64,000 bases of DNA from Loigolactobacillus iwatensis (GTDB lineage: Bacteria; Bacillota; Bacilli; Lactobacillales; Lactobacillaceae): contig NZ_RHNP01000001.1 of the NCBI RefSeq assembly GCF_003950295.1, forward strand, positions 124,001 through 188,000. Direction: 5' to 3'. The notes under the pieces were generated by a model. It was given only the letters and a program-made list of their open reading frames with translations. It was not told the origin of the DNA and ran no database searches. How positions within the stretch are numbered: the first letter of the stretch is position 1; each line of letters opens with the position of its first letter. Positions 12,466 to 29,212 of this stretch are shown in pieces. The position numbers and the translations under genes are program-made.

Positions 12466-12512
12466 AAATAGGGATTACGCCAAAAATTGAATTTTGGCGT
12501 AATCCCTATTTA
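12466..12512. terminator. Strong hairpin terminator after the 10410 gene
   Basis: AAATAGGGATTACGCCAAAA pairs perfectly with TTTTGGCGTAATCCCTATTT around a short loop. It probably serves both the plus-strand gene and the convergent gene ending at 12570. Confidence 0.75.
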
Positions 12513-12569: not shown

Positions 12570-13019
12570 TTATTCCAAAACAAACATTTGGTCAATTAAA
12601 TGTTTGAGCTCTTTTTTAATAAAACCGGCATCCTTGTATGAAAGTTGGAATAAAGTAGCATCAGGTTGCTCTCCTGATCCAAATTCCTTTTGTAATTCCA
12701 CCGCATTTCGGTATTCATTTTCAATCATTTGTTGTTGTGCTTCCAACTTAGCCGGAACCAAGTCATTCATGTGTTCTGCATCAAAGCCCACAATCAAATT
12801 CCCTTTGCTATAGCTAACATGTGTCACTCCGCCATGAACGTCAAAACTAGCCCAGTCGGCCAACCGCGATTTTTCGTAGTAAACGTTGGTTTCTGGAATA
12901 GTGACGTAGCCGTACATGGCGCCCAGTTTATTTTGGCGAATTGTAGCCTTATAACCATGATAAATAAATGTTTTTTCTTTTGGTTGCTGATTCCAGACTC
13001 CTTCAGGTAATTTTGACAT
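12570..13019 (-). CDS. Hypothetical protein resembling a family common in Firmicute phages and plasmids
   Basis: This 149-residue soluble protein has no signal peptide or transmembrane helix. The middle part, GYVTIPETNVYYEK...DVHGGVTHV...LIVGFDAEHMNDLVP, resembles the pattern VHGGLT...GFDCAHxGD seen in many uncharacterised phage-encoded proteins. That resemblance is from memory and is not a search result. The C-terminal half is charged and helical. The ATG at 13019 has an excellent ribosome binding site (GAGGAGGATGAGCT). It sits just downstream of a promoter and a long structured RNA ending in an intrinsic terminator, so its expression may depend on readthrough. Function unknown. Confidence 0.75.
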   Translation of the reverse strand: MSKLPEGVWNQQPKEKTFIYHGYKATIRQNKLGAMYGYVTIPETNVYYEKSRLADWASFDVHGGVTHVSYSKGNLIVGFDAEHMNDLVPAKLEAQQQMIENEYRNAVELQKEFGSGEQPDATLFQLSYKDAGFIKKELKHLIDQMFVLE

Positions 13020-13044: not shown

Positions 13045-13076
13045 AAAAAAGAACCGCGAACCAGATCGATTCGCGG
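13045..13076 (-). terminator. Intrinsic terminator just before the 12570 gene
   Basis: On the minus strand CCGCGAA and TTCGCGG close a stem that is followed by TTCTTTTTT. It ends about ten bases before the ribosome binding site of the 12570 gene, the usual geometry of a leader attenuator. Confidence 0.85.
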
Positions 13077-13325
13077 ATTGATACTTGCGGAAGACTACTT
13101 CCGAGACCAATTTTATAGTGTAATCCTTACTACACGAAGCTTTCGGAATAACCTAGTTCTGCAACTAGCGCCGTTACACTACCTCAAGTAGTACGATACG
13201 TTTGTTATTCCTATTCGCCAGAGCTAACTTGAGCACAACGCTGATCGTTACTAACCTACCAATCTCACGTTGGCGCCTTGCAGTGATGATAATCATCACC
13301 GTTAATTAGTCTCTCCATCTTCCTT
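13045..13325 (-). ncRNA. Candidate structured leader RNA or independent ncRNA (unassigned class)
   Basis: A promoter at 13332-13360 and an intrinsic terminator at 13045-13076 bracket about 280 nt. The 5' segment at 13304-13313 (GAGACTAATT) can pair over ten positions with 13103-13112 (AATTGGTCTC). This closes a multibranch domain. Inside are clear helices: GTGATGA/TCATCAC, CGCCA/TGGCG, GGAATAAC/GTTATTCC (holding CTACTTGAGGTAG and CTAGTT-GCAG-AACTAG hairpins) and GTGTAGT/ATTACAC. A GGAAGA at the very 5' end can compete with the CGGAAG-TAGT-CTTCCG hairpin just before the terminator, which would allow switching. I found no signature of T-box, lysine, SAM, TPP, cobalamin, glycine, purine or ZTP riboswitches, nor of RNase P, SRP RNA or tmRNA. 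Confidence 0.6.
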
Positions 13326-13331
13326 AACTGT

Positions 13332-13360
13332 AATATAGCATGAATTGGAAACGGATACAA
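13332..13360 (-). promoter_or_regulatory. Promoter of the structured RNA
   Basis: On the minus strand TTGTAT (13355-13360) and TATATT (13332-13337) are separated by exactly 17 bases, with a TG one base before the -10 box. Transcription should begin near 13325. Confidence 0.7.
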
Positions 13361-13482: not shown

Positions 13483-14739
13483 TTATTTACCAAATAGACT
13501 CTGAGTAGTTCTCAAGCCTCTAAATCCGATATCTTTGCGGTAGTAAAACTTGGCCAGTTTTAACTGTTCAAGTTGTTGGTAGGCCTTTTCTTGGGCGCTC
13601 GCTAAATTTTTTCCGTGCACGACTAATGTAAAAATACGTCCGCCCGCATTATACAATTGACCATTTTTGGCCGTTACGTTTGCGTAATAGACATTTTGCG
13701 GTAATGGCGGTAGCGTTAAACCTACTTGTGGCTTTTGGGGGTACCCTGGTGCAGCAACGACCACCCCTAAATAACTTTCTGCCTTTTGCCACTCAACTTG
13801 AGGCAATTTACCGGCAATTAAGGCCATAATTAATTGATAAAAATCACTGCGTAATTGCGGCAAAATGACCTGGGTTTCTGGATCGCCTAATCGTAAATTA
13901 TATTCAATTACTTTTGGTCCAGCAGTAGTTGCCACACAACCAATATAAATGACACCTGCAAAGGTCAGTTTATTTGCCACTAAACCGGCCATTGTTGGTT
14001 GCACAATTTGCGTTAATGCGCGCTGGTACATAGTGGTTGGCATCTGCGGTAATGGTGAGTACGCTCCCATACCACCTGTATTGGGTCCTTTATCACCTGC
14101 GCTAAGTTTCTTATGGTCTTGGGAGAGCGGTAAGAGAACCGTTTGGGTGCCGCCAACAAATAACATTAACGAAAATTCTTCCCCACTTAAATAATCCTCA
14201 ATTAATATTTCGGTGGCGTGTTGCAATCCTTTATGAATAACCGCTGCAAGCTCGGTACTAGCCCTAACAATTGTCACCCCTTTACCACCCGCCAAACCAT
14301 TCTCCTTAACCACTAGCGGTAGTGAACGTTCTTGAGCATAACTTAACGCCTGTGCTTCATCGCTAAAGGCACGAAAATTTGCCGTTGGAATATGTTGCTG
14401 CTGCATAAATTGTTTCGCAAATTTTTTTGAACTTTCCAATTGGGCTGCGGCCTTATGCGGACCAAAAATAGTCAATTCTTGCGCCTGAAAATAGTCAACA
14501 ATCCCAGCAGCCAATGGTTCTTCTGATCCAACAAATGTTAAATCAATCGCTTGGGCCTTGACAAACTCTGCTAAATCAGCAAAGGCAAGCATTGCAATAT
14601 CGACACAGTTAATACCATCCCGCTGCATGCCAGGATTTCCCGGTGCACAGTAAACCGTCGTTACTTGCGAACTCTTTAGAAAGGCCACACAAATCGCGTG
14701 TTCCCGCGCTCCTGAACCAATCACAAGTACTTTTGCCAT
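13483..14739 (-). CDS. purD: Phosphoribosylamine-glycine ligase PurD
   Basis: PurD joins glycine to phosphoribosylamine with ATP, the second step of purine synthesis. The 418-residue protein starts AKVLVIGSGAREHAI and contains the ATP-grasp motifs VKENGLAGGKGV and GPNTGGMGAYSP, all in canonical places. The frame is open for 22 more codons upstream, but the ATG at 14739 has AAGGTGGGG in front of it and matches the family N-terminus. It is the last gene of the purEKCSQLFMNHD operon, 17 bases after purH. I see no strong U-tract terminator between its stop and the structured RNA promoter at 13360. Confidence 0.95.
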   Translation of the reverse strand: MAKVLVIGSGAREHAICVAFLKSSQVTTVYCAPGNPGMQRDGINCVDIAMLAFADLAEFVKAQAIDLTFVGSEEPLAAGIVDYFQAQELTIFGPHKAAAQLESSKKFAKQFMQQQHIPTANFRAFSDEAQALSYAQERSLPLVVKENGLAGGKGVTIVRASTELAAVIHKGLQHATEILIEDYLSGEEFSLMLFVGGTQTVLLPLSQDHKKLSAGDKGPNTGGMGAYSPLPQMPTTMYQRALTQIVQPTMAGLVANKLTFAGVIYIGCVATTAGPKVIEYNLRLGDPETQVILPQLRSDFYQLIMALIAGKLPQVEWQKAESYLGVVVAAPGYPQKPQVGLTLPPLPQNVYYANVTAKNGQLYNAGGRIFTLVVHGKNLASAQEKAYQQLEQLKLAKFYYRKDIGFRGLRTTQSLFGK

Positions 14740-14756
14740 CTGCGTCCCCACCTTTA

Positions 14757-16286
14757 CTAATGTCTGAAGTGACGAATGCCCGTCGTTACTAAAACAATTC
14801 CCCATTTATCGGCCATATCAATTGAATCTTGATCACGAATACTACCACCTGGTTGAACAATCGCCTTTATACCATGTTTGGCAGCGTAAGCTACACAGTC
14901 ATCCATTGGGAAAAAGGCGTCAGAGGCCATAATCGCGTTTTCATAACCGGCCTTAGGCATTGCCTTTTGAACGGCAATTTTAGTAGAATCAATTCGGTTA
15001 GGCTGACCAGAACCAATGCCTAAAGTTTGCGTGTCCGTGGTCACAACAATGGCGTTACTTTTAACGTGTTTCACAATGTGCTGCCCAAAGGCTAAGGCCG
15101 CCAACTGTTGCTTGGTTGGTTGCTTTTGGCTAACAACTGTAAAATCAGCCGTGGTGTCGACTTTTTTATCAACTTCTTGTATTAAAAGACCACCACTAAC
15201 GGAAATAGTTTCAAATTGATCAGCTTGGTCCTTACGACTAAAATCAGCCTGTAGTAAACGAACATTTTTCTTTTTGGCCAAAATGGCGTAGGCTTCATCG
15301 CTAAACGAAGGTGCAATAATGATTTCCAAAAAGAGTTCGTGCATTTTGCTAGCAGTTACTGCGTCAACTTCACGATTAACCGCGATAATTCCACCAAAAA
15401 TCGACATGGTATCTGATTCGTAAGCCTTGTCCCAGGCTGCACTCAATGTAGTAGCAACACCAACTCCACAGGGATTCATGTGCTTCATTGCAACCACAGT
15501 CGGCCGTTCAAACTCACGAATCATTTTCATTGCTGCATCGGCGTCTTTAATATTGTTGTAGGACAATTCTTTACCGTGGAGCTGCTTAGTGACCACTGAA
15601 TAGGCTGATGGAATAGCATTTTGATAAAAAGCGGCCTTTTGATGACTATTTTCACCGTAACGTAATGCCTGCTGTTTCTCGTACGTCAGCGTTAACTGTT
15701 GGGGAAACTCTTCAGTTGTGAGGTAATTAGCGATCAATGCATCATAAGCCGCAGTATGGCGAAAAACTTTGGCCGCTAACTGTTTACAAAAATTCTGATC
15801 AACGGTTCCTGCTTGTAAAGCTGCAATTACTTTAGTGTAATCGGCCGGATCAACAACGGGGATAACGCCAGCAAAGTTTTTTGCCGCAGCCCGCAACATT
15901 GATGGTCCACCAATATCAATTTGTTCAATTGCCTGTTCCTGGGTTGTTGTTGGTTTTTCAATTGTTGCTTTAAATGGGTAAAGATTAACCACGACGAGGT
16001 CAATTGGCACAATCTGTGCTTCTTTTAGTTGTTGCATGTGATCAGCGTTATCACGTTTGGCCAAAATACCAGCATGAATGTTTGGGTGCAATGTTTTTAC
16101 CCGCCCGTCTAACATTTCAGGGAAGCCCGTTACGGTTTCAACCCCAGTGACAGCAATTTCAGCCGCTTCTAGCACTTTTTTAGTACCCCCAGTTGAAACT
16201 AATTCATAACCTAACTGCAGCAACTGTTTGGCAAAATCCACCAAGCCTGTTTTATCTGAAACACTTAAAAGAGCTCTCTTCGTCAA
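14757..16286 (-). CDS. purH: Bifunctional AICAR transformylase / IMP cyclohydrolase PurH
   Basis: PurH performs the last two steps to IMP: formylation of AICAR and ring closure. The N-terminal third ([20 protein letters not shown]) is the MGS-like cyclohydrolase domain. The C-terminal two thirds form the transformylase domain, with [14 protein letters not shown] and [14 protein letters not shown], which carries the catalytic Lys-His pair. I chose the TTG at 16286, because AAGGAGAG precedes it by seven bases and the product (about 509 residues) matches the family. The ATG at 16304 would place the ribosome binding site inside the gene. One base separates it from the purN stop. Confidence 0.95.
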
Positions 16287-16287
16287 T

Positions 16288-16872
16288 TTAAATCTCTCCT
16301 TCATTTAATAATTGTTCAACCACTTGCGGGTATAACTGGTGCTCAGTTGTATGAATTCGTTTAGCCAACGAGGCAAGATCATCTTGCGGTAAAACCTTAA
16401 CTGTTCGTTGAGCAATAATCTTACCCGTATCAATTCCAGAATCAACCCAGTGAATCGTCACCCCAGTTGTTGTAACGCCTGCAGCAAAGGCATCTTCAAT
16501 ACCGTGCCGCCCAGAAAAGTGCGGTAACAAGGCAGGATGAATATTGATAATTTTACGTGGGTAAGCAGCAAGCAAGGTGGGACCAATAATCCGCATATAT
16601 CCGGCTAACAAAATAAAATCAATCCGTTTAGCCTGTAATTGTTTAATAATTTGCTGCTCGGCGGCCGCTTTATTAGAGTATGCTTTAAAATCGACCACCA
16701 AACTTGGTACCTTTTCTTTTGCTGCTCGGCGTAGGACGTTAACTGCTGGGTGGTCGCAAATAAGTAATTCAACCTTTAAAGGTAAATTTTGCTGGCGAAA
16801 GGCTGTTATTAGGGCCGTAAAATTAGTTCCTTCACCAGATGCAAAGATTGCAATATTCTTTTCTTGTTCCAT
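16288..16872 (-). CDS. purN: Phosphoribosylglycinamide formyltransferase PurN
   Basis: PurN transfers a formyl group from 10-formyl-tetrahydrofolate to GAR, the third step of the pathway. The 194-residue protein has [16 protein letters not shown] at the N-terminus for phosphate binding. The catalytic region [31 protein letters not shown] includes the conserved Asn and His, followed by [15 protein letters not shown] with the catalytic Asp. Length is normal. It lies directly between purM and purH with essentially no spacer. Confidence 0.95.
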
Positions 16873-17886
16873 TTACTTTTGCTCCTGTAGGATAACTTTT
16901 TGCTGACCCGTAGTAACTTGACCAATTTGTAAAACTGGCTGTTGTTTTTCCGCTAGTACCTGCTTAACTTGCGCCACATTTTCAGGGTGAACGGCTAACA
17001 CCATCCCAATTCCTAAATTAAACGTACTGGCAAGATCAGTAAATGAAAGTTGACCTAAACTAGCTAAGTCCTGCATAATTCCAGGAAGTGTCCAAGTTGA
17101 GCAATCAATCACTGCATCAAGGTCAGTCGGTAAAATTCGCGGGACGTTTTCCAACAAACCACCACCGGTAATGTGGGCAATCCCACTGATTAAATTTTGC
17201 TGAACTAAGGGTAATACCGCCTTAACGTAAATTTTAGTGGGCCGTAATAATTCATGGGCTAAATCCATTTTGCAGTGCTGTAATTGGGCACTTAATTCAA
17301 AGTGATGTTGCTTAAATAAAATCTGCCGAACGAGACTAAACCCATTTGAATGAAGTCCCTGGGCCGGCAAGCCCAGCAGGATATCACCTAACGCCATTTT
17401 TGCAGGTTGCATTAGTTGCTGGGCCTCAGCGATCCCCACCGCAAAACCAGCTAAATCATAGTGGCCAGCGTGGTACATGTCTGGCATTTCGGCGGTTTCA
17501 CCACCAACTAACTGAACTTGTGCGTCTTGGCAACCAGCAACAATTCCCGTTAAAATCGCCTGGGTTTGTGCCCGCTGCAAATGACCAACACCTAAGTAGT
17601 CTAAGAAAAATAGCGGTTGCGCGCCTTGGGCCACAATATCATTAACACACATTGCAACTAAATCAATCCCAATTGTGGCGTGTTCCTGAGCCTTTTGGGC
17701 GATTAATAGTTTAGTTCCAACTCCATCCGCACCGGAAACCAAAACCGGCTGTTTATACCCAGCTAAGTCTAAGGGAAAAAGGCCGCCAAATGAGCCCAGG
17801 GCTTGATTACCAGATAATTTTTTTAAATCAGTGACGACTTGATTGCCCGCCGCAATATCGACGCCAGCTCTTTTATACGCATCCAT
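16873..17886 (-). CDS. purM: Phosphoribosylformylglycinamidine cyclo-ligase PurM
   Basis: PurM closes the imidazole ring to make aminoimidazole ribonucleotide using ATP. The 337-residue protein begins [16 protein letters not shown] and has the family motifs [31 protein letters not shown] and [11 protein letters not shown] in order. The open frame extends 37 codons upstream inside purF, but the ATG at 17886, preceded by GAGGTGAACTCA, gives the standard N-terminus. It overlaps the end of purF by 14 bases, which implies translational coupling. Confidence 0.95.
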
Positions 17887-19333
17887 TGAGTTCACCTCGT
17901 TCATGTGCCAATTGTTGTTGTTCCGCATCATATTCTTCTTGGTAATCGTAAAGTGGTGTTGGATAATCGCCATTAAAATAAGCAACGCACAAACCATGAT
18001 TTGGTGCAGTGGATTTTAAATTAATTGCCTTGATTAAATTGGCGGTACTTAAGAAGGCCAAAGAGTCACAGCCAAAGGTGGCGGTCATTTCGGCAACACT
18101 TTGGTTGGCGGCAATTAATTCGCGCGCAGTTTGAATATCAATTCCGTAAAAACAAGGAAAGCGTAACGGTGGTGACGCAATTCGTAAATGAACTTCCTTG
18201 GCACCGGCATCCTTTAATAATTTAACAATCCGGCGACTAGTTGTTCCCCGAACAATCGAATCATCTACCAGCACAACTCGCTTTCCTGCAACTACCCCTT
18301 TAACCGCAGATAACTTTAAAAAAACACCCTGTTCGCGTAATTCTTGCGTTGGTTCGATGAAAGTTCGGGCTGAATATTGATTCTTAACCAAACCAATTTC
18401 ATAAGGTAGCCCACTTTCCTCAGAGTAACCACTGGCCGCCGAAAGGGAAGAATTGGGAACACCGATAACCATATCCGCATCTGCTGGGTGTTCTCGGGCC
18501 AAAAGCTTACCCATTCGTTTACGGGCAGAATGAACGTTAACACCGTAGATTTCCGAATCGGGACGAGCAAAATAAATGAATTCCATTGAACAAATAGCCA
18601 GTTCCGTTTTATTAGTGTACTGTTCTATTCTTAGGCCGGCCGCGTCAATAATTAAAAGTTCCCCTGGATGAACATCACACTTAAAGGTGGCACCCACAAC
18701 ATCCAGCGCACAAGTTTCGCTGCAAACAACGTAGGCGCCATTGATCAACTGACCAACCACTAACGGTCGAAAACCGTTGGGATCCAGTGCCGCGTATAGG
18801 CGATCCTTCGTGAGTAATAAGTAGGCAAAACCACCTTTAATTTTTCGCAAGGCGGATTTAACCTGCTCATCCAAAGTGGCTGCCTTACTACAGCGAATTA
18901 GGTGCATTAAAATTTCACTATCCGAACTAGAATGAAAAATTGCCCCACTTGCCTCTAAATCTTTTCTTAAAGAAATTGCGTTAGTCAAATTACCATTATG
19001 CGCCAAAGCAAACTGTGTATCGCTAAAATTAAACGGCAACGGCTGAACATTTTCTAACGTATTAGCTCCTGCAGTTGAGTAGCGGACATGGCCAATGGCA
19101 GCAGTTCCGTGCAAATCGTTAATCTTTTGCTGGGACGAAAACACATCAGTTAACAAACCTAAACCACGTTCAGTACGTAACTTTCCTTGTTCATTAACCG
19201 TAATACCCGCACCTTCTTGACCACGATGTTGCAGTGCAAATAAACCAAAATAGGTTAATTGGGCCGCGTCCGGTGTTCCCCAGATACCAAAAACGCCACA
19301 CTCTTCATTAAGACTCTTCACTTCAGACTGCAT
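17873..19333 (-). CDS. purF: Amidophosphoribosyltransferase PurF
   Basis: PurF catalyses the committed step, making phosphoribosylamine from PRPP and glutamine. The 486-residue product starts [11 protein letters not shown] followed by CGVFGIWG. The short propeptide is normally cleaved so that this cysteine becomes the N-terminal nucleophile of the glutaminase domain. The PRPP-binding loop [15 protein letters not shown] lies in the C-terminal transferase domain. I chose the ATG at 19333 because AAGGAG lies nine bases upstream; the frame is open to 19351. The start overlaps the purL end by 16 bases. Three later cysteines may belong to the family's Fe-S cluster type, as in Bacillus. Confidence 0.95.
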
Positions 19334-21537
19334 GCCAAAGCTCCTTCCCATAATCTTTTGGCTTCAGAAAGTGCCAGCTTAAATTCGCCATCAGTTGCTG
19401 CAACAAAGAGTTGCTGCTGGTTAGTTACCTTCCCAAGAAGTGTTGCGTCACGGCCCATTAATTGTTCAAAACCCAATTTATTTTCTGGTTTAACTGAAAT
19501 CAGAAACCGACCTTGCGTTTCGGCAAAAAACTGTGCCGTGGTTAACGTACTACTCAGTGCCACACCTAAATCTTTACCAAAACAGCTTTCGGCAATCGCC
19601 ACAATTAGGCCACCCTCAGAAATATCGTGAGCACTAGCAATTAGGCCTTGCCGGTTTGCACGTAAAATTAATTGTTGAATTCGCTGTTCTTCATCTAAAT
19701 TAAAGGGAAAAAGCTTGCCGCCAATTTTGCCAGTCAATAATTTTTGAATTTCCGTGCCATTAAAATCATTACCAGTTCGACCAACAACGTAAACATTATC
19801 GTTGGCCTGCTTAAAGTCCTGCGTCGTAATCTGGTTTAACCCTTTGATTAAACCCACCATGCCAACCATTGGTGTTGGGTAAATAGCAACATCGTTAAAT
19901 TCATTGTTTAGCGAAACATTCCCGGAAATAACTGGGGTATTAAACACTTTACAGGCCGCCGTCATTCCCATAACTGCTTCATCCAATTCATAAAATTGAT
20001 CAGGTTTTGTTGGATTACCAAAATTTAGACAATCAGTAATGCCCAACGGAACGCCACCAGTCGCCACAATATTACGTGCGGCTTCAGCAACAGCCATTTC
20101 GCCGCCCACATAGGGATCTAAGTAAAGGTAACGGCCGTTAACATCAGTGGTCATTGCCAAGGCCTTGTCGGTATGGCGAATTCGCACGACGGCCGCATCA
20201 GAACCTGGCTGAACGATTGTATTCGTTTGAACCTGCGTATCATAAGTTTCGTAAATCATTTTTTTAGACGCAATCGTCAGTTGTTGGAGCATTTGCCTCA
20301 AAATTTGAGTTGGTTCTGTAATGTTTGGTGAAAACTGAATGGCTGCTTGTTGTAAAATATGCTCCGGGACAGTCTTTTCACGGTGATAAACTGGTGCAGC
20401 AGTTGCCAGCGAGTCCACTGGCACATCCGCTACTATTTCACCATGGTGACTCAATTGGTATTGATGGCCAGTTGTGACCTGCCCAATAACGGCGGCAGTA
20501 AGTCCATAATCATTAAATAGATCTAAAATTTCATTTTCACTGCCAGACTTGATACAAAGCAGCATCCGTTCTTGTGATTCGGACAACATTAATTCAAAAG
20601 CAGTCATATTGGCTTCACGTTGTGGGACTAGATCAAGGTCCAGGGTCATACCACTACCGGCCTTGGAAGCCATTTCGGCGGATGAAGAAACTAGCCCAGC
20701 AGCGCCCATGTCTTGAATGCCGACTAATGCATCCTGATGCTTATAGATAACGTCTAAACAGGCCTCCATCACTAATTTTTCCGTAAATGGATCACCCACT
20801 TGAACAGCGGAACGTTGGCTTTTATGTTTAGAATCAAATTGCGCCGATGCAAAGGAGGCCCCGTTAATCCCGTCACGACCAGTTTTTGCGCCAACGTAGA
20901 TAATACTGTTACCTACGCCAGTTGCTTGACCTTTTTCACGATTAGTTAAATCCATCAAACCCACACACATAACGTTTACTAAAGGATTAGCAGCGTAAGT
21001 TGCATCAAAAGCTGTATCGCCACCAACCGTTGGTACCCCAATACAATTTCCGTAGGCAGCAATTCCGTCAACAATCTGGTTAATTAGATATTTATCGTGG
21101 GCAGTTTTAGGTTCATTGAAACGTAAACTATCCAATAAAGCAATTGGCCGGGCCCCCATTGAAAAGATATCCCGTAAAATACCACCAACGCCTGTAGTTG
21201 CACCCTGAAATGGTTCAACTGCCGACGGATGGTTGTGACTTTCGGCCTTAAACACAATTCCCTGGTTATCACCAATATCAATAATTCCCGCACCTTCGCC
21301 AGGTCCTTCAACGACTTGTTTGGCCTTGGTCCAAAATTTCTTCAAAACTGGTTTTGAATTTTTATAGGAACAGTGTTCGCTCCACATACCAGAATACAGA
21401 CCTATTTCGGTGTAAGTTGGTAAGCGTTGTAAAATTTTCGTCGTAATTAATTGATATTCAGCATCCGTCAACCCTAAACCTTGATAGTACTTCGTAGCTT
21501 GGATTGCTTCTGGTGTAAGTTCCACTGTTTCACTCAT
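19318..21537 (-). CDS. purL: Phosphoribosylformylglycinamidine synthase subunit PurL
   Basis: PurL is the large synthetase subunit of FGAM synthase and works with PurQ (glutaminase) and PurS. At 739 residues it is the small Gram-positive type, not the 1300-residue fused enzyme. The N-terminal region has the ATP-binding segment [16 protein letters not shown] and the catalytic histidine region [17 protein letters not shown]. The [19 protein letters not shown] motif follows. Its start overlaps the purQ stop by eight bases. The presence of separate purS and purQ genes just upstream fits this three-subunit complex. Confidence 0.96.
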
Positions 21538-22213
21538 GAATTAGCCCACGCTTTCTTACCGAATTGACTAACGAGCTGAAAAGTTCGCGGCCTGAAGTAG
21601 AACCAAGAATTGCTTCTACTGCACGCTCTGGATGGGGCATCATACCCAAGACATTACCTTGTCGGTTAGAAATCCCGGCGATATCTGCAACACTACCGTT
21701 AGGATTATTTTGATAGGTGAAAATAATCTGGTTATTTTTTCTTAATTCCGCCAAAGTTGTTGGATCACAATAATAATTGCCGTCACCGTGCGCAATGGGT
21801 AGTTGAATTGTTTGTTGCGTTTGGTAATCAGTTGTAAACATCGTTTGATTATTCGTAACGACTAAATCAGCAAGTTTACAAATAAACTTGGACTGTTGAT
21901 TTCGTTGCAAACTACCAGGTAATAACCTGGCCTCAGTTAATATCTGAAAACCGTTGCAGATACCCAGTACAGGTTTCCCGGCCGCCGCAAACCTTTTAAC
22001 GGCCGACATAATCGGCGCCAACTGCGCAATTGCCCCACTACGTAAATAATCACCGTAAGAAAACCCACCAGGAAGTAACACGGCGCTGTAGTCACTCAAA
22101 TCGGTGGCCGTAGACGGAACTAATTCTGCTTGCTCCTTAACTACGTCCTCGATTGCGTAAACTAAGTCCATTTCGCAATTGGAACCGGGAAAGGCAACAA
22201 CTGCGAATTTCAT
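21530..22213 (-). CDS. purQ: Phosphoribosylformylglycinamidine synthase subunit PurQ
   Basis: PurQ is the class I glutamine amidotransferase subunit that feeds ammonia to PurL. The 227-residue protein has the oxyanion-strand and nucleophile region [15 protein letters not shown] with the catalytic cysteine. [10 protein letters not shown] near the C-terminus supplies the His and Glu of the triad. [12 protein letters not shown] at the N-terminus and [18 protein letters not shown] are also diagnostic. The ATG overlaps the purS stop by four bases and its own stop overlaps the purL start, so all three subunits are translated together. Confidence 0.96.
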
Positions 22214-22473
22214 TCTGCCACCGCCAATTCTTCAAGTTGATAGTGGTAGCTTTCCATGTTCACGTTAGCGAGTAGTCGATCGCAAATTTCGTCTACTTCT
22301 TTTGCGGCCTGCTCCTTAGATTGCGAGCCGGTCAATTTCAATTCAAAATATTTACCCAACTGGACGGAAGTAACGTCCTGATAACCTAAACGCAACAAGG
22401 CCGTCTGAACCGCCTGTGCCTCAGGATTCAAGATTGAACGCTTATAATTAACGTGGATTTTCGCTAAATACAT
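22210..22473 (-). CDS. purS: Phosphoribosylformylglycinamidine synthase subunit PurS
   Basis: PurS is the small subunit that bridges PurQ and PurL in the Gram-positive FGAM synthase. It has 87 residues, normal for the family, with the pattern [23 protein letters not shown] at the N-terminus and [14 protein letters not shown] in the middle. The start codon overlaps the purC stop by one base, and its end overlaps purQ. There are no anomalies. Confidence 0.94.
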
Positions 22474-23204
22474 TAGTTATGTCCCTCCACTTTCTGCAAA
22501 CGTTGCAAAACAGTTTTATAAACGGGAACCAAGTCACCTAAACCTTTACGAAAAACGTCTTTGTCTAGGGATTCTTTAGTTTTCTGATCAACTAAACGAC
22601 AACTATCCGGTGAAATTTCATCCGCTAAAATGATTTCACCGGTTTGATCCAGGCCAAATTCAACTTTAAAGTCAATTAACTCAATTTGCATTGCGGCAAA
22701 AATTGTTCGTAAACGTTGGTTAATTTTAAGTGCCAGGTTACGTATTTGGTCTAATTGTTGCTGTGTTGCAATATTTAGCGCCTTGATTTGCGAATCATTA
22801 ATAAATGGATCATCTAATTTATCACTTTTATAGAAGAATTCTTTGACCGGTTGTTCAAATTTCAGTAAATGGTCAACCGCAAATTTGCGTTCGAAACTAC
22901 CAGAAGCAAAATTGCGAATAACTACCTCTAACGGAATTATTTGTACTTTTTTAACTAGTTGATTATTGGCGTCAATTTGTTTGATGAAGTCATTGGGGAT
23001 ACCATTTGCCGTTAGATCAGAGAAAATCAAACTGGAAATCTGGTTATTCGTTGTCCCTTTATCAGTCATTTGGACTTTCTTTTTACCATTTAAGGCCGTG
23101 ACTTGATCCATGTAATGAACCCAAACAACATCCGCAACGTTAGTGGCAAACATTTCTTTGGCCTTACCGCGATACAATAATTCCTTTTTCTCGTAATCCA
23201 CCAT
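22473..23204 (-). CDS. purC: SAICAR synthetase PurC
   Basis: PurC condenses CAIR with aspartate. The 243-residue protein begins with the typical LLYRGKAKEMFATNVADVVWVHYMD segment and includes VVIRNFASGSFERKF, LIDFKVEFGLD and LADEISPDSCRLVD, the conserved motifs of the ATP and CAIR site. It starts one base after the purK stop and its stop overlaps the purS start. Residues and length are standard. Confidence 0.96.
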   Translation of the reverse strand: MVDYEKKELLYRGKAKEMFATNVADVVWVHYMDQVTALNGKKKVQMTDKGTTNNQISSLIFSDLTANGIPNDFIKQIDANNQLVKKVQIIPLEVVIRNFASGSFERKFAVDHLLKFEQPVKEFFYKSDKLDDPFINDSQIKALNIATQQQLDQIRNLALKINQRLRTIFAAMQIELIDFKVEFGLDQTGEIILADEISPDSCRLVDQKTKESLDKDVFRKGLGDLVPVYKTVLQRLQKVEGHN

Positions 23205-23205
23205 A

Positions 23206-24339
23206 TTAATCGTCTCCCTTTAATGCCTGCGTACTTGCCAATAATTGTTCAACGTTATCGCCTAAAACAGTGATGTGGCCTAATTTACGTTGCGGCCGAA
23301 TCGCATCTTTACCATAATCGTGAAAGTGCCATTCTGGATGATCGTCTAAAAGCCGCCGAGCCTTGGTCAAATCAGACCCCAAAAGGTTAGTCATTACAGC
23401 CGTTCTTTCTTGTTCAATTGCCGGAATAGGTAGGCCACAAATACTACGAATATGGGCCTCAAACTGAGAAATATTACAGGCCTCAATGCTGTAGTGCCCA
23501 GAATTATGGGGGCGTGGCGCCAACTCATTAATTACCAGATGCTGTTCATCAAGAATAAAAAATTCGATACCCAAAACACCGCGTAAATTTAATTCGGTCG
23601 CAATCTTAACGGCGGCCGCTTTAGCCAATCCCGCGATCGTTTCGCCAAAGCGTGCTGGTGCAATCGTGGTGTGCAAAATATGGTGCTTATGAAAATCTTC
23701 CACTAATGGAAAAGTAATAATTTTACCGGCCGCAGTTCGCGTGACCATCATGGCCGCTTCACCAATAAACTTTTGCCGCGCTTCAAGAATACAGCCCGCT
23801 TGTTGATAAAGCTTTGCAGCAGCAGGTAAATTCGCGGCTACATTAAGATCAAGCTGTCCGTGGCCATCGTAGCCACCTGCGGCCGTTTTTAAAATTGCCG
23901 GATAACCGATTTGATTAATGGCGGCCGTCAAACTTTCGCTATCAGTGACGGCGGCAAAATTAGTTACCGGTAGGCCAGCCGAACGTAGAAAATTTTTCTC
24001 ATTCAATCGATCGCCAGTGATATGTAATAATTCAGTTCCTTGTGGTAATTCAGTTACCGTCTGGGCCTTAATCAAGGCCTGCTCATCAACATTCTCAAAT
24101 TCATAGGTTAGGACCGCACTGCGCCGTGCCAATTCCATTAAGGCTGCTGTATCAGTGTAGGCGGCCTTAATTTGAAAATCGGCTACCTGACCGGCTGGTG
24201 CATGGGGCGTTGGATCGAGAACACCAACTTTATACCCCATTGCCTTGGCACTTAAAGCCATCATCTGGCCTAATTGCCCACCTCCGACAATTCCAATCGT
24301 TGCTGGTGGCAAAATTACTTTAGTTGAATTGCTGTTCAC
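23206..24339 (-). CDS. purK: N5-carboxyaminoimidazole ribonucleotide synthase PurK
   Basis: PurK uses ATP and bicarbonate to carboxylate AIR, giving the substrate of PurE. The 377-residue ATP-grasp protein begins TIGIVGGGQLGQMMALSAKAMGYKV and contains KTAAGGYDGHGQ, EARQKFIGEAAMMV and the C-terminal ELAPRPHNSGHYSIEAC motif. The start overlaps the purE coding end by 20 bases. With purE it forms the two-step bacterial carboxylation route. Confidence 0.96.
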   Translation of the reverse strand: MNSNSTKVILPPATIGIVGGGQLGQMMALSAKAMGYKVGVLDPTPHAPAGQVADFQIKAAYTDTAALMELARRSAVLTYEFENVDEQALIKAQTVTELPQGTELLHITGDRLNEKNFLRSAGLPVTNFAAVTDSESLTAAINQIGYPAILKTAAGGYDGHGQLDLNVAANLPAAAKLYQQAGCILEARQKFIGEAAMMVTRTAAGKIITFPLVEDFHKHHILHTTIAPARFGETIAGLAKAAAVKIATELNLRGVLGIEFFILDEQHLVINELAPRPHNSGHYSIEACNISQFEAHIRSICGLPIPAIEQERTAVMTNLLGSDLTKARRLLDDHPEWHFHDYGKDAIRPQRKLGHITVLGDNVEQLLASTQALKGDD

Positions 24340-24808
24340 TGGTAATCGCCTCCTGCCGCTGCTGTTCCTTAAACGCCACCAATTTAGCCGTTAACTTGGA
24401 ATCATCGATCGCCAGAATTTGTATGGCCAACAAGGCCGCATTTTTCGCCCCTGCCTCACCAATGCTGACAGTTGCAACCGGAGCACCAAAGGGCATCTGA
24501 ACAATTGATAATAAAGAGTCAACACCATTTAATGTTCGTGTTTTTATTGGAACACCAATTACCGGTAAGGTTGTATTTGCCGCCAACATACCTGGTAAGT
24601 GGGCGGCACCACCTGCTCCAGCAATGATAGCCTTTAGGCCCTTAGTTACGGCATTACTACCATAAGTGTACAGTTCATTTGGCATTCGGTGAGCAGAAAT
24701 AACGTGCTTTTCGTAGCCAATTCCAAACTTATCCAACCAATTGCAGGTCAATTTCATCGTTGACCAGTCCGAAATCGATCCCATAACAACGCCAACATCA
24801 TTCGTCAT
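24320..24808 (-). CDS. purE: N5-carboxyaminoimidazole ribonucleotide mutase PurE
   Basis: PurE moves the carboxylate from N5 to C4 of the ring, producing CAIR. The 162-residue protein shows the class I PurE motifs VGVVMGSISDWSTMK, HVISAHRMPNELYTY and IIAGAGGAAHLPGMLA. The active-site histidine lies in SAHR. It is the first gene of the operon and is preceded by AAGGAAG and by a promoter with a candidate PurR box. Confidence 0.96.
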   Translation of the reverse strand: MTNDVGVVMGSISDWSTMKLTCNWLDKFGIGYEKHVISAHRMPNELYTYGSNAVTKGLKAIIAGAGGAAHLPGMLAANTTLPVIGVPIKTRTLNGVDSLLSIVQMPFGAPVATVSIGEAGAKNAALLAIQILAIDDSKLTAKLVAFKEQQRQEAITSEQQFN

Positions 24809-25517: not shown

Positions 25518-26180
25518 TTATTGACTAGTTTTATTTGTTGGATCAAATTTTCGTTCAAAAAAGCCAAGTACACTATCAGAAATAATCGCCATTAAGGCGG
25601 TTGGTAGCGCACCTGCTAAAATAATTGCCCCACCATTTGTGGCATTGGTTCCACGAATAATAATATCACCTAAACCACCAGCACCAACGAAAGAACCAAT
25701 GGCGGTAATCCCAATAGCTAATACTAGCGCATTTCGAATACCGGCCATGATGACTGATAAGGATAGCGGTATTTCAATTAATCGTAAAATCTGAACCCGG
25801 GTCATCCCCATACCTTTACCGGCATCTAAAACATCAGCGTTGACATTTAACATCCCTGTATAAGTATTTTTGATAATTGGCAATAATGCGTAGAGAAAGA
25901 CCGTCACGATAACCGTATTAACTCCAAGCCCAAGTGCCAACATTATGAGCGACAACATTGCTAACGATGGCACGGTTTGAATCACGTTTGCAATTCCAAT
26001 CACCCAACCACTGAGTTTACGATGTTTAGCAATAAAAATACCAATTGGAATGCCAACAATCGCCGCAAAAACAACCCCATAAATTGAGATTAAAAAGTGC
26101 CGATCAAATTGACTGAGGACGTACATACCATTGTGGGCAAAGTAATAGAATAGTTGTTGAAAAATATTCATATTTTGCAT
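25518..26180 (-). CDS. opuCD: Glycine betaine/carnitine/choline ABC transporter permease OpuCD
   Basis: This is the second permease of the OpuC osmoprotectant importer. The 220-residue protein has five to six transmembrane helices and the binding-protein-dependent transport loop ADVLDAGKGMGMTRVQILRLIEIPLSLSVIMAGIRNA, which contacts the ATPase. The start follows the opuCC stop with a one-base overlap. The short N-terminal region MNIFQQLFYYFAHNGMYVLSQF is typical of OpuCB/CD permeases. It is the last gene of the operon and is followed by the family A/B repeat block, which provides a terminator. Confidence 0.93.
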   Translation of the reverse strand: MQNMNIFQQLFYYFAHNGMYVLSQFDRHFLISIYGVVFAAIVGIPIGIFIAKHRKLSGWVIGIANVIQTVPSLAMLSLIMLALGLGVNTVIVTVFLYALLPIIKNTYTGMLNVNADVLDAGKGMGMTRVQILRLIEIPLSLSVIMAGIRNALVLAIGITAIGSFVGAGGLGDIIIRGTNATNGGAIILAGALPTALMAIISDSVLGFFERKFDPTNKTSQ

Positions 26181-27118
26181 TAATTTTGTCCCCCTTCAAA
26201 ATAATTGTTGTCTTTCAAGAACTTATTGGCCACTGTTGCTGGTTCCTGTAAATTATTATCAACTTGATAATTTAAACGCTGCATTGTCTTCAATGGAATT
26301 TTACCGTCTAAACGTTTTAAAATTGGTCGCAATTGTGGATTCCGCTTCAACGCCTTATCGTTGGCAACTACACTAGCTTGATAAGGTGGGAAAAACTGTT
26401 TATCGTCTTTTAACAACTTCAAATTATAACTACCAATTCGACCATCGGTAGAATAACCTAAGATAGCATCCATCTTATTACTAGCTAAAGCGTTGTAAAC
26501 CAAGCCAATTTGCATTGGGTAGACGTGACCAAAACTGAAGCCGTACGCCTTTTGGAAGGCACCGTAACCATCAGCCTTACGATTCATCCAAATTTGATCA
26601 ATCCCAACCTGCATTTGTGGTGCAGTCTTTTTCAGATCACTAACAGTATTTAAATTGTGTTCTTTGGCGTACTTTTGCGTCACCATAAATTGATAAGTAT
26701 CAGCAAAACCGTAACTTGGGAAATAAGTCATGTGGTATTTCTTTTGAAAATCGCGTTTTACAGTAGTTGCGATTACCTTAGGATCTTTAGTCGCCGATTT
26801 TTTCAAAATTGTTTGGTAATCTGTACCGTTAAATCGAATTGCAGTTAGATCAGCCTCATCATTTTTTTGAGCCTGAAAACTAACGGTGGCCGAACCAAGG
26901 TTATTAATAACGGTGGTATCTAAATTAGAATAATGTTTAATCATCCCTTGAATAATTGCCGCCATAATTTGTTGCTCAGTTGTGTTTTGAGCAGCAATCC
27001 GTACAGTATCATCAGAAGTGCCACCTAAACCAGGTAAACTACAACCACTTAGGGTAACCACTAAAGCCACGAGGGGTAAAAACAACTTGATAACACGTTT
27101 CATTCTCTTTGTCATCAT
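26180..27118 (-). CDS. opuCC: Osmoprotectant-binding lipoprotein OpuCC
   Basis: This 312-residue extracellular binding protein supplies glycine betaine, carnitine or choline-type solutes to OpuCB/CD. A basic, hydrophobic signal peptide ends in the lipobox LSGC, so the cysteine near residue 26 should be lipidated. DDTVRIAAQNTTEQQIMAAIIQGMI begins the mature domain. The C-terminal half has the MDAILGYSTDGRIGSYNL segment typical of OpuCC-type proteins. The start and stop overlap both neighbouring permease genes by one base, giving the classic CA-CB-CC-CD order. Confidence 0.93.
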   Translation of the reverse strand: MMTKRMKRVIKLFLPLVALVVTLSGCSLPGLGGTSDDTVRIAAQNTTEQQIMAAIIQGMIKHYSNLDTTVINNLGSATVSFQAQKNDEADLTAIRFNGTDYQTILKKSATKDPKVIATTVKRDFQKKYHMTYFPSYGFADTYQFMVTQKYAKEHNLNTVSDLKKTAPQMQVGIDQIWMNRKADGYGAFQKAYGFSFGHVYPMQIGLVYNALASNKMDAILGYSTDGRIGSYNLKLLKDDKQFFPPYQASVVANDKALKRNPQLRPILKRLDGKIPLKTMQRLNYQVDNNLQEPATVANKFLKDNNYFEGGQN

Positions 27119-27750
27119 TAACCCTCCTCTGTTGTCTTTGGTGTTAGTAACAGTTCCAGCCGGCCTAATAGAAAGTCAACGACTAGGGCCAAAATAATAA
27201 CTGGAATTGAACCACCAAGAATTAGGTCAGAACGATATAGATTTAAGCCATTGAAAATGAAATCCCCAAGGCCGCCAGCACCAATATATGAAGCCAACGC
27301 CGTCCACGCGATTACATAGGTGGCGGACAGGCGGACACCCGCCATGATCACCGGTGCGGCCAAAGGCAACTCAACGCGCATAATTGACTGAAAATTGCTC
27401 ATTCCCATTCCTTTAGCGGCGTCCCGTAAGGTTGGATCAACATTCTCCATTCCTAAATAAGTATTCCGTAGAATGGGTAACAATGAGTAAATAAACAACG
27501 CAACAATCGCCGGTTTGGCACCAATCCCAAAAATAGGAATCATCATTGCTAGTAGTGCCATTGCGGGAATTGTCTGCAAAACACTGGCTAGGCCAATAAC
27601 AAAACCAGAAATTCGTTTGTACCGCGTTAAAACAACTCCTAGTGGAATTGCAACGATCACACCAAGTCCCAACGAGATCCCTGAAATGTAGATATGCTGC
27701 CAAGTCTTAAATATAAGTTGAGAGCCAAATTGATTAAAGAAGTTGATCAT
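27118..27750 (-). CDS. opuCB: Glycine betaine/carnitine/choline ABC transporter permease OpuCB
   Basis: This is the first permease of the OpuC system, 210 residues with five to six transmembrane helices. The cytoplasmic loop [38 protein letters not shown] is the EAA motif for docking to OpuCA. It overlaps the opuCA stop by four bases and the opuCC start by one base. Sequence and length match the family, with no irregularities. Confidence 0.93.
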
Positions 27751-28991
27751 TTCTGATCACCATCCTCCGTTGTTTGCGTTACTTCGGCCTGTGATTCAGT
27801 CTTACCTGCTTCTTTATCTGGGTTATCTTCTGTTTCTTTTGTTTGACCGCTATCGTTGGAATTACTCTTGTCGGCCTCGCCCCATAAAGCATCATAAACT
27901 ATATCCACTAAGGTAGCTCGCGTTACGATTCCGATTAATTTCCCGTCATCATCGATAACTGGAACATTTCGAAAACCACGTTTTAAAATCCGATCAACAG
28001 TATCGCGAATAACGGAATCCTTCCTAACATAAAAAACATTGCTATCCATGATATCGCCAATTCGTTTACCTGAGCCGTAGTAATGGTTCAAACGCTCAAT
28101 ACCAACAAAGCCAGTCAGTTTACCCTCGTTATTAGTCACCAACAAGGTATCAACACGTTTTGTATGCATTTCACCTAAGGCTTGCTTCAAAGTCTGATCT
28201 TCCCGTGCAGAAATGGCCTTTGTAGCCACTTGCCCAACCGTTGTGATACTTGGCCGTGCCTGAATTAAGCGATCTTGACCAATTAAGTCGGCAACAAATT
28301 TATTGGCGGGATGCCGCAAAATGTTGTCTGGTGTATCTACTTGAACTTGCTTACCATAAGACATGATCACAACCCTCGTTGCCAAACTCAATGCTTCATC
28401 CATATCGTGGGTTACAAAAATAAAGGTTTTACCGGATTTTTCCTGCAAATCCTTAACCAAATCCTGCAGTGATTCACGCGTAATCGGGTCTAAGGCACCA
28501 AATGGTTCATCCATTAAAATAATGTCCTGATCGGCCGCTAAAGCCCGTATAACACCAATCCGTTGTTGTTGTCCACCAGATAATTCAGAAGGATAACGAT
28601 CTAAAAATTCTTCGGGCAATTCAACTAGTTTAATCATCTCTTTAGCCCGTTCATTACGTTTTTCAACGGGCCATTTAAGTAATTTTGGAACTAACGTAAT
28701 GTTGTCCCGAATTGTCATATGGGGCATCAAACCAACGTTCTGAATAACATATCCAATTTTACGCCGTAATTTAACTGGATTCATTTGTGCAATATCTTCA
28801 CCATTAATTTTAATTGTGCCAGAAGATTGCTCTAGCATCCGGTTAATCATTCGCATCGTTGTTGTTTTACCTGAACCGGAAGTGCCAATAAAACAAATAA
28901 ACTCTCCTTTTTCGACCTCGAGATTGAAATCGTCAACGGCAGTTTTGCCACCCGGATAAACTTTGGTTAAGTGTTCCATTGATAGTAACAT
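27747..28991 (-). CDS. opuCA: Osmoprotectant ABC transporter ATPase OpuCA with tandem CBS domains
   Basis: OpuCA powers uptake of quaternary-ammonium osmolytes. The N-terminal ATPase has [12 protein letters not shown] (Walker A), [11 protein letters not shown] (signature) and [12 protein letters not shown] (Walker B). Two CBS domains follow: one around [19 protein letters not shown] and one around [21 protein letters not shown]. In Listeria and Staphylococcus the OpuCA CBS domains bind c-di-AMP, so osmotic gating by this nucleotide is likely here. An acidic, Thr/Glu-rich tail of about 45 residues ends the protein. I prefer the ATG at 28991 because [15 protein letters not shown] aligns with homologues; an ATG at 29027 is in frame but lacks a ribosome binding site. 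Confidence 0.93.
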
Positions 28992-29212
28992 ACCTTTACC
29001 ATCGCCTTCGCTTAGAATTTGAATCATGTTTAAATGCTAACAATAGTAGACCCCTTATTGCAAAAGAATATGAGGATCACATGAGAATTAAACTATAAAA
29101 CAGCTTATTATCTAGCACGTGCCAAAATTATTTTTACAAAGATACTGCGCAAAATTGGCCTAAACGCGTCTAAAAAAGAGACCACTACTATTTCCCGCAA
29201 CAACTAGGAAGT

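Follow-up and report, generated by a model that had tools for sequence, protein, structure and literature searches.

Two described RNAs are among the nearest points of reference for the locus considered here. RsaI of Staphylococcus aureus is described as an RNA that CcpA represses under abundant glucose, and that pairs with the ribosome binding sites of mRNAs (PMC9266662). The second, a long non-coding RNA of Lactobacillus salivarius, resembles the present RNA, when the two are compared by description, in being restricted to a narrow group of lactobacilli and in having no established function in the terms in which PMC5643018 presents it; it differs in its length (520 nt, as opposed to ~280 nt) and in being carried on a megaplasmid rather than beside a transporter operon. 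Among the matches listed for literature on RNA in Loigolactobacillus, L. backii and L. coryniformis, no title describes the present RNA.

The window analysed here (the whole stretch of 64,000 nucleotides from Loigolactobacillus iwatensis) carries, on its minus strand and between two genes, a structured RNA of ~280 nt that extends from about position 13325 to 13045 (Table 1). This RNA is real, conserved and structured, and it falls below every Rfam threshold. The reading that we favour, at a probability of roughly 0.6, is that it represents a ‘stand-alone’ non-coding RNA gene, the product of which most likely acts in trans, and which is possibly repressed by CcpA in four species.

Table 1. Features of the RNA locus and its surroundings, in window coordinates.
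Feature	Position	Strand	Basis or remark
Betaine/choline-type ABC transporter operon (opuC)	25518-29027	-	seemingly ancestral upstream neighbour; synteny in 8/8 genomes
Purine genes (purD at 13483)	13483-24808	-	between transporter operon and RNA; same order in G007
Promoter-like sequence: TTGTAT (13360-13355), 17-base spacer, extended -10 TGC-TATATT (13340-13332)	13332-13360	-	sequence
cre-like site TGTATCCGTTTCCA over the -35 (weak)	13346-13359	-	two mismatches to TGWAANCGNTNWCA
Structured RNA	13045-13325	-	z -5.2; homologues in 5/7 other genus genomes; 16 two-sided pair changes
P1a, 5' strand GGAAGAU	13317-13323	-	partner 13089-13095; nearly invariant; mean probability 0.75-0.96 (n=6); no covariation
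P1a, 3' strand GUCUUCC	13089-13095	-	sequence and pair probabilities
P1b, 5' strand GAGACUAAUU	13304-13313	-	partner 13103-13112; nearly invariant; mean probability 0.87-0.97 (n=6); no covariation
P1b, 3' strand AAUUGGUCUC	13103-13112	-	sequence and pair probabilities
P2 hairpin	13281-13301	-	two-sided changes among species once register is hand-corrected
P3 hairpin arm	13233-13274	-	two pairs with two-sided changes
P5 arm (13204-13211 with 13145-13152)	13145-13211	-	bears P6, P7 and P8; two-sided changes in P5, P7 and P8
P7	13177-13193	-	within P5 arm
P8	13153-13168	-	within P5 arm
P9 hairpin	13118-13135	-	three pairs with two-sided changes
Intrinsic terminator: stem 13076-13054, T-run 13050-13045	13045-13076	-	scan; three stem pairs with two-sided changes
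149-aa ORF after RNA	12570-13019	-	2/8 genus genomes, against 6/8 for the RNA; outside the RNA's conserved context

The RNA strand has a predicted minimum free energy of -94.8 kcal/mol, where shuffled sequences average -71.2; the corresponding z-score is -5.2, none of 200 shuffled sequences being as stable; with the terminator removed, the score is still -4.5 for this RNA and -3.0 for its homologue in genome G002. The ten-position pairing between the two ends of the segment, as drawn in the first-pass annotation, is present (GAGACUAAUU with AAUUGGUCUC), and it continues outward (13323-13317 with 13095-13089) to form the long stem P1, which is nearly invariant, has no covariation support, and is predicted with a mean probability of 0.75-0.97 in all six RNA-bearing species. 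The estimate of at least four enclosed helices likewise stands, since more than four are found in both the predicted and the consensus folds, and the overall picture of a structured RNA with a promoter-like sequence of its own, a multibranch fold and a terminator is supported. Four segments that are left open in the fold (AAGUUAG, AACGG, CGAAA and AGUAUC) are invariant. A coding function was considered and rejected: three of the sequences contain open reading frames of at least 20 codons (window and G007, 41 codons each; G004, 24 codons), and the remaining three contain none. The window holds no tRNA or tmRNA gene.

An automatic alignment of the six sequences, which fall into two groups only, yields a consensus of 79 pairs in which 95.1% of the base-pair cells are standard, and in which 16 pairs display two-sided changes (the shuffled mean is 8.2, and 0 of 500 shuffles reach that number). 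Controls in which the partners were slid by 1 to 3 columns gave 33-46% paired cells and between zero and five two-sided pairs. The compensatory changes that had been proposed as a check on this RNA are therefore found by this count; by one further measure, the number of additional pair types, the alignment does not rise above its shuffled counterparts (33, against a mean of 37.3, with 495 of 500 shuffles at least as high). Re-registering P2, P5 and P9 by hand increased the paired cells to 98.5% and the two-sided pairs to 17 (0 of 1000 shuffles); such an alignment leans towards the structure, and the automatic counts take precedence. The zero probabilities that the window and G007 display for P2, P5 and P9 are an artefact of the uncorrected register. 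Folded singly, the RNAs of G003 and G005 adopt a different interior, with a low probability for the inner consensus helices. The two-sided changes in P2, P3, P7, P8 and P9 fall partly inside a group of four close species (G002 to G005), and so they do not reflect a single event between the two groups.

In agreement with the first-pass annotation, which had failed to place the RNA in any known class, no Rfam 15 model matches the window at its gathering cut-off; across the six homologous stretches, the only matches are to group II intron domains that adjoin the RNA. Relaxed searches produced only weak matches, the best of which, to isrK, scored 17.4 bits (E 0.14) where the cut-off is 50. Membership in the 6S RNA family (RF00013) was rejected, as the match to that family sits elsewhere in all eight Loigolactobacillus genomes. 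A new class of catalytic or small-molecule-binding RNA, which would act alone, with no partner protein or mRNA, would be in keeping with this lack of a match at threshold, and with the compact, closed fold and its invariant joining segments. We consider it quite improbable, given that no conserved pseudoknot of at least four pairs was found (the search covered ungapped complementarity between unpaired columns common to all six sequences), and that the distribution is narrow, comprising six of eight genomes of one genus.

That distribution was established by several searches, in all of which the RNA is confined to the genus Loigolactobacillus. With blastn, it was detected in six of 60 genomes, all of them among the eight Loigolactobacillus genomes analysed; the search for homologues in related lactobacilli that the first-pass annotation had proposed returned single copies in five of the seven other genus genomes. 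A covariance model (R1) recovered one copy in each of the same six genomes, with no match in the remaining two (G001 and G006) up to an E-value of 10. Applied to 397 genomes of the family, the model returned those six together with two weak matches (E 0.065 and 0.13); applied to 395 genomes of the order, it returned the window's own copy and two weak matches, one of which is shared with the family search. These two samples overlap, and strict filters in such large searches mean that distant relatives may be missed. The weak matches (G138, G204 and G528; E 0.065, 0.13 and 0.88) are taken as chance because they span only 32, 77 and 78 bases, and because stray matches reach 15.3 bits when the model is run with filters off over 10 loci, where the five true copies score at least 272 bits. 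No convincing relative outside the genus was found in the family and order genomes.

A 24-base pattern, allowed up to three mismatches, was found in 11 of the 397 family genomes, six of them within the genus (with zero mismatches) and five elsewhere (with three); its reversed control produced three matches. A pattern with 17 fixed letters retrieved 58 stretches from a genome-contig collection and eight from a viral-contig collection, and of these 66, four fit the RNA model well, all from Loigolactobacillus, while two fit it weakly (E 0.065 and 0.21). In a named collection, the carriers are L. binensis, L. zhaoyuanensis, L. jiayinensis and L. backii. Copies of the RNA from different groups share 66-69% sequence identity, those inside the group of four 82-92%, and those of the window and G007 98%. 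A phage or plasmid origin was also considered and rejected; searches of phage and plasmid collections with the G005 copy of the RNA returned no match.

The surroundings of the RNA vary from one species to the next. All eight genomes share a small heat-shock gene (hsp20) that lies divergently ahead of four transporter genes, here called opuCA to opuCD. In the window, the ATPase of this operon scores above the proV cut-off, and the matches of its permease and binding protein to betaine/choline families stay below the cut-off. The RNA directly follows this operon in G002 to G005; the order is opuCD, RNA and tag in G002, G003 and G004, and RNA, group II intron and tag in G005. In the window and G007, the RNA is followed by the 149-aa ORF, and tag is absent from the stretches examined (the G007 contig ends soon after the ORF). 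In G001 and G006, opuCD and tag are separated by about 90 and 50 bases, respectively, with no RNA between them, an arrangement that corresponds to an empty site. A mobile RNA was entertained when the purD and opuC neighbours first seemed unrelated, and was dismissed once the transporter operon was recognized in the window as well, on the strand of the RNA and 12 kb upstream of it. The RNA therefore seems to occupy its ancestral place. The best purD matches in G002 to G006 lie far away or on another contig, that of G003 (locus L128, G003:C25:6744-7979) containing one in-frame TGA stop, which may be an error of assembly or the mark of a broken gene; G001 has no strong match (best E 6e-6).

The intron of G005, which encodes reverse transcriptase and maturase domains, sits directly behind the RNA's terminator (L154:5414-7622), and we take it to start immediately after the T-run, judging by its GUGCG start. 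Some group II introns (class C) insert behind terminators.

In a tree of five flanking proteins, G006 groups with the window and G007 (support 1.000), and G001 stands beside them (0.996); the other four genomes lie apart. On this tree, which is unrooted and represents one locus, the two absences of the RNA require a minimum of two changes, two losses being the simplest account. Such absences, in two of eight species, are what one might expect of an elaborate terminator or a remnant without any role of its own. That explanation appears highly improbable, however, in view of the retention of core, promoter and terminator at the level of identity that separates the two groups, the compensatory changes in most of the inner helices, and the persistence of the RNA after purine genes came between it and the transporter operon.

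The first-pass annotation had also described a near-consensus promoter. The sequence TTGTAT-17-TATATT is indeed present (with the -10 proper at 13337-13332), and it suggests a transcription start near 13325; the term ‘near-consensus’ is too generous, as TTGTAT matches TTGACA at three of six positions. A scan demanding nine of 12 promoter positions does not include this promoter among its sites. Within 2.5 kb, six promoter-like and three terminator-like sites were counted, compared to 6.1 and 2.5 in shuffled sequence, and such matches alone therefore mean little. What makes the promoter credible is that its extended -10 element (TGnTATATT) is identical in all six species that bear the RNA; the -35 is TTGTAT in two of them and TTGCAA in four. 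The terminator, a strong one, is likewise present in all six.

The same upstream region contains sites that resemble the cre elements recognized by CcpA. In the window, matches to TGWAANCGNTNWCA with two mismatches are at chance level (77, against 76.7 expected). In G002 to G005, which are close relatives, TGTAATCGCTTGCA overlaps the -35 and has one mismatch to the B. subtilis cre consensus and, by hand count, three mismatches in 16 to that of L. plantarum (both consensus sequences as given in PMC5986886). One-mismatch matches are expected about 1.1 times per 12 kb, or 0.7 times per 9.5 kb. With one position of the pattern relaxed, 23 of 158 loci match, all of them overlapping copies of the promoters of these four species. 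CcpA may possibly control the RNA.

Downstream, the T-run ends 11 bases before GAGGAGGA (13033-13026), in good agreement with the ‘about ten bases’ originally reported between the RNA and the ribosome binding site of the next gene, and 25 bases before an ATG at 13019. That gene, described as phage-like, is the 149-aa ORF; it matches only one PHROG, of unknown function (E 2.2e-15), and has no match among phage-collection records. No Pfam match was found for it, and none was confirmed in viral contigs. The ORF has a good ribosome binding site, and the promoter scan gave none for it. Between it and a converging 682-aa ORF lies a near-perfect inverted repeat (12466-12511, ~20 pairs by reading) that looks like a two-way terminator.

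This proximity raises the question of whether the RNA is a cis-acting leader, controlling readthrough past its terminator into tag or the 149-aa ORF, whichever comes next. Readthrough control is possible because an ORF follows closely in four of the six species, beginning 19 (G002), 25 (window and G007) or 30 (G004) nucleotides past the T-run by hand count, and because the two species tested, G002 and G004, contain no other promoter-like site on the RNA strand. Nevertheless, the next gene varies; in G003 it is 229 bases distant, and in G005 it lies beyond the intron, at about 2.2 kb; furthermore, the tag gene of G001 follows a terminator-like hairpin without the RNA. The switch-like geometry that the first-pass annotation had proposed finds no support in this analysis. 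The hairpin just ahead of the terminator, with which the 5' GGAAGA was proposed to compete, can be drawn, yet it contributes negligibly to the ensemble (GGAAG/CUUCC has a mean probability of at most 0.03 in all six sequences), and a pairing between the 5' strand and the AAGUUAG region reaches at most 0.01. Among helices of at least six pairs that are kept in all six sequences, five alternatives were found; none uses the 5' arm of the terminator, and the single one that touches its 3' arm is mostly G-U. Also discarded was a long pairing between AUCAGCGC and GCGCUGAU: sequences L003 and L004 appear to use it when folded singly, but by reading it cannot form in L001, L002 and L006. With no good conserved helix of at least six pairs competing with the terminator, and with a downstream gene that changes, a leader function seems unlikely.

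A stand-alone RNA, in comparison, is argued for by the combination of a promoter-like sequence, a covarying terminator, and survival despite neighbours that change on both sides (opuCD or purD upstream; tag, the intron or the 149-aa ORF downstream). Transcription of such an RNA would start at the extended -10 promoter, near 13325, and would end at the intrinsic terminator near 13045, producing a transcript of ~280 nt in which the long P1 stem would close the molecule around a multi-helix core. The open, invariant segments would then be available to contact a partner, whether protein or mRNA. In the four species with the one-mismatch site, CcpA would repress the gene through the cre element over the -35, such that the RNA would rise once preferred sugars run out.

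A survey of possible pairing with 21 local gene starts, several of them approximate and the test consequently weak, gave a best z-score of -2.1 (tag of G003), and a score of -1.6 for opuCC in both the window and G007; no target recurred across the two species groups. A more specific, and rather doubtful, extension of the stand-alone reading is that the RNA represents a new functional class, compact and closed by P1, that might act in trans by way of a protein or small molecule bound to it and not through simple base pairing, confined to the genus and dispensable in two of its species.

Loigolactobacillus provides a well-supported structured RNA, below Rfam thresholds and so far limited to this one genus among the lactobacilli. 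Two related species have nothing at the corresponding site, which opens the function of the RNA to direct tests, by deletion as well as by comparison of natural carriers and non-carriers. Should the cre-like site prove real, sugar control in these bacteria would gain an RNA arm.

Several known systems share individual features with this locus. Attenuating riboswitches and leaders have a comparable layout, in that a multibranch RNA closed by P1 is followed by a terminator and, in four of the six species, by an ORF; the present RNA differs in having no supported alternative fold, a changing downstream gene, and no Rfam class at threshold. 6S RNA is also structured, stand-alone and a few hundred bases in length, but it is rod-like, whereas the Loigolactobacillus RNA is multibranched. 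RsaI, which was compared by description and by Rfam scans only, differs in that it has pairing targets, of which none was found here among the 21 local starts (several approximate), and in that the cre-like site of the present RNA is convincing in four species only; what the two have in common is the arrangement of a stand-alone RNA gene whose promoter bears a possible CcpA site.
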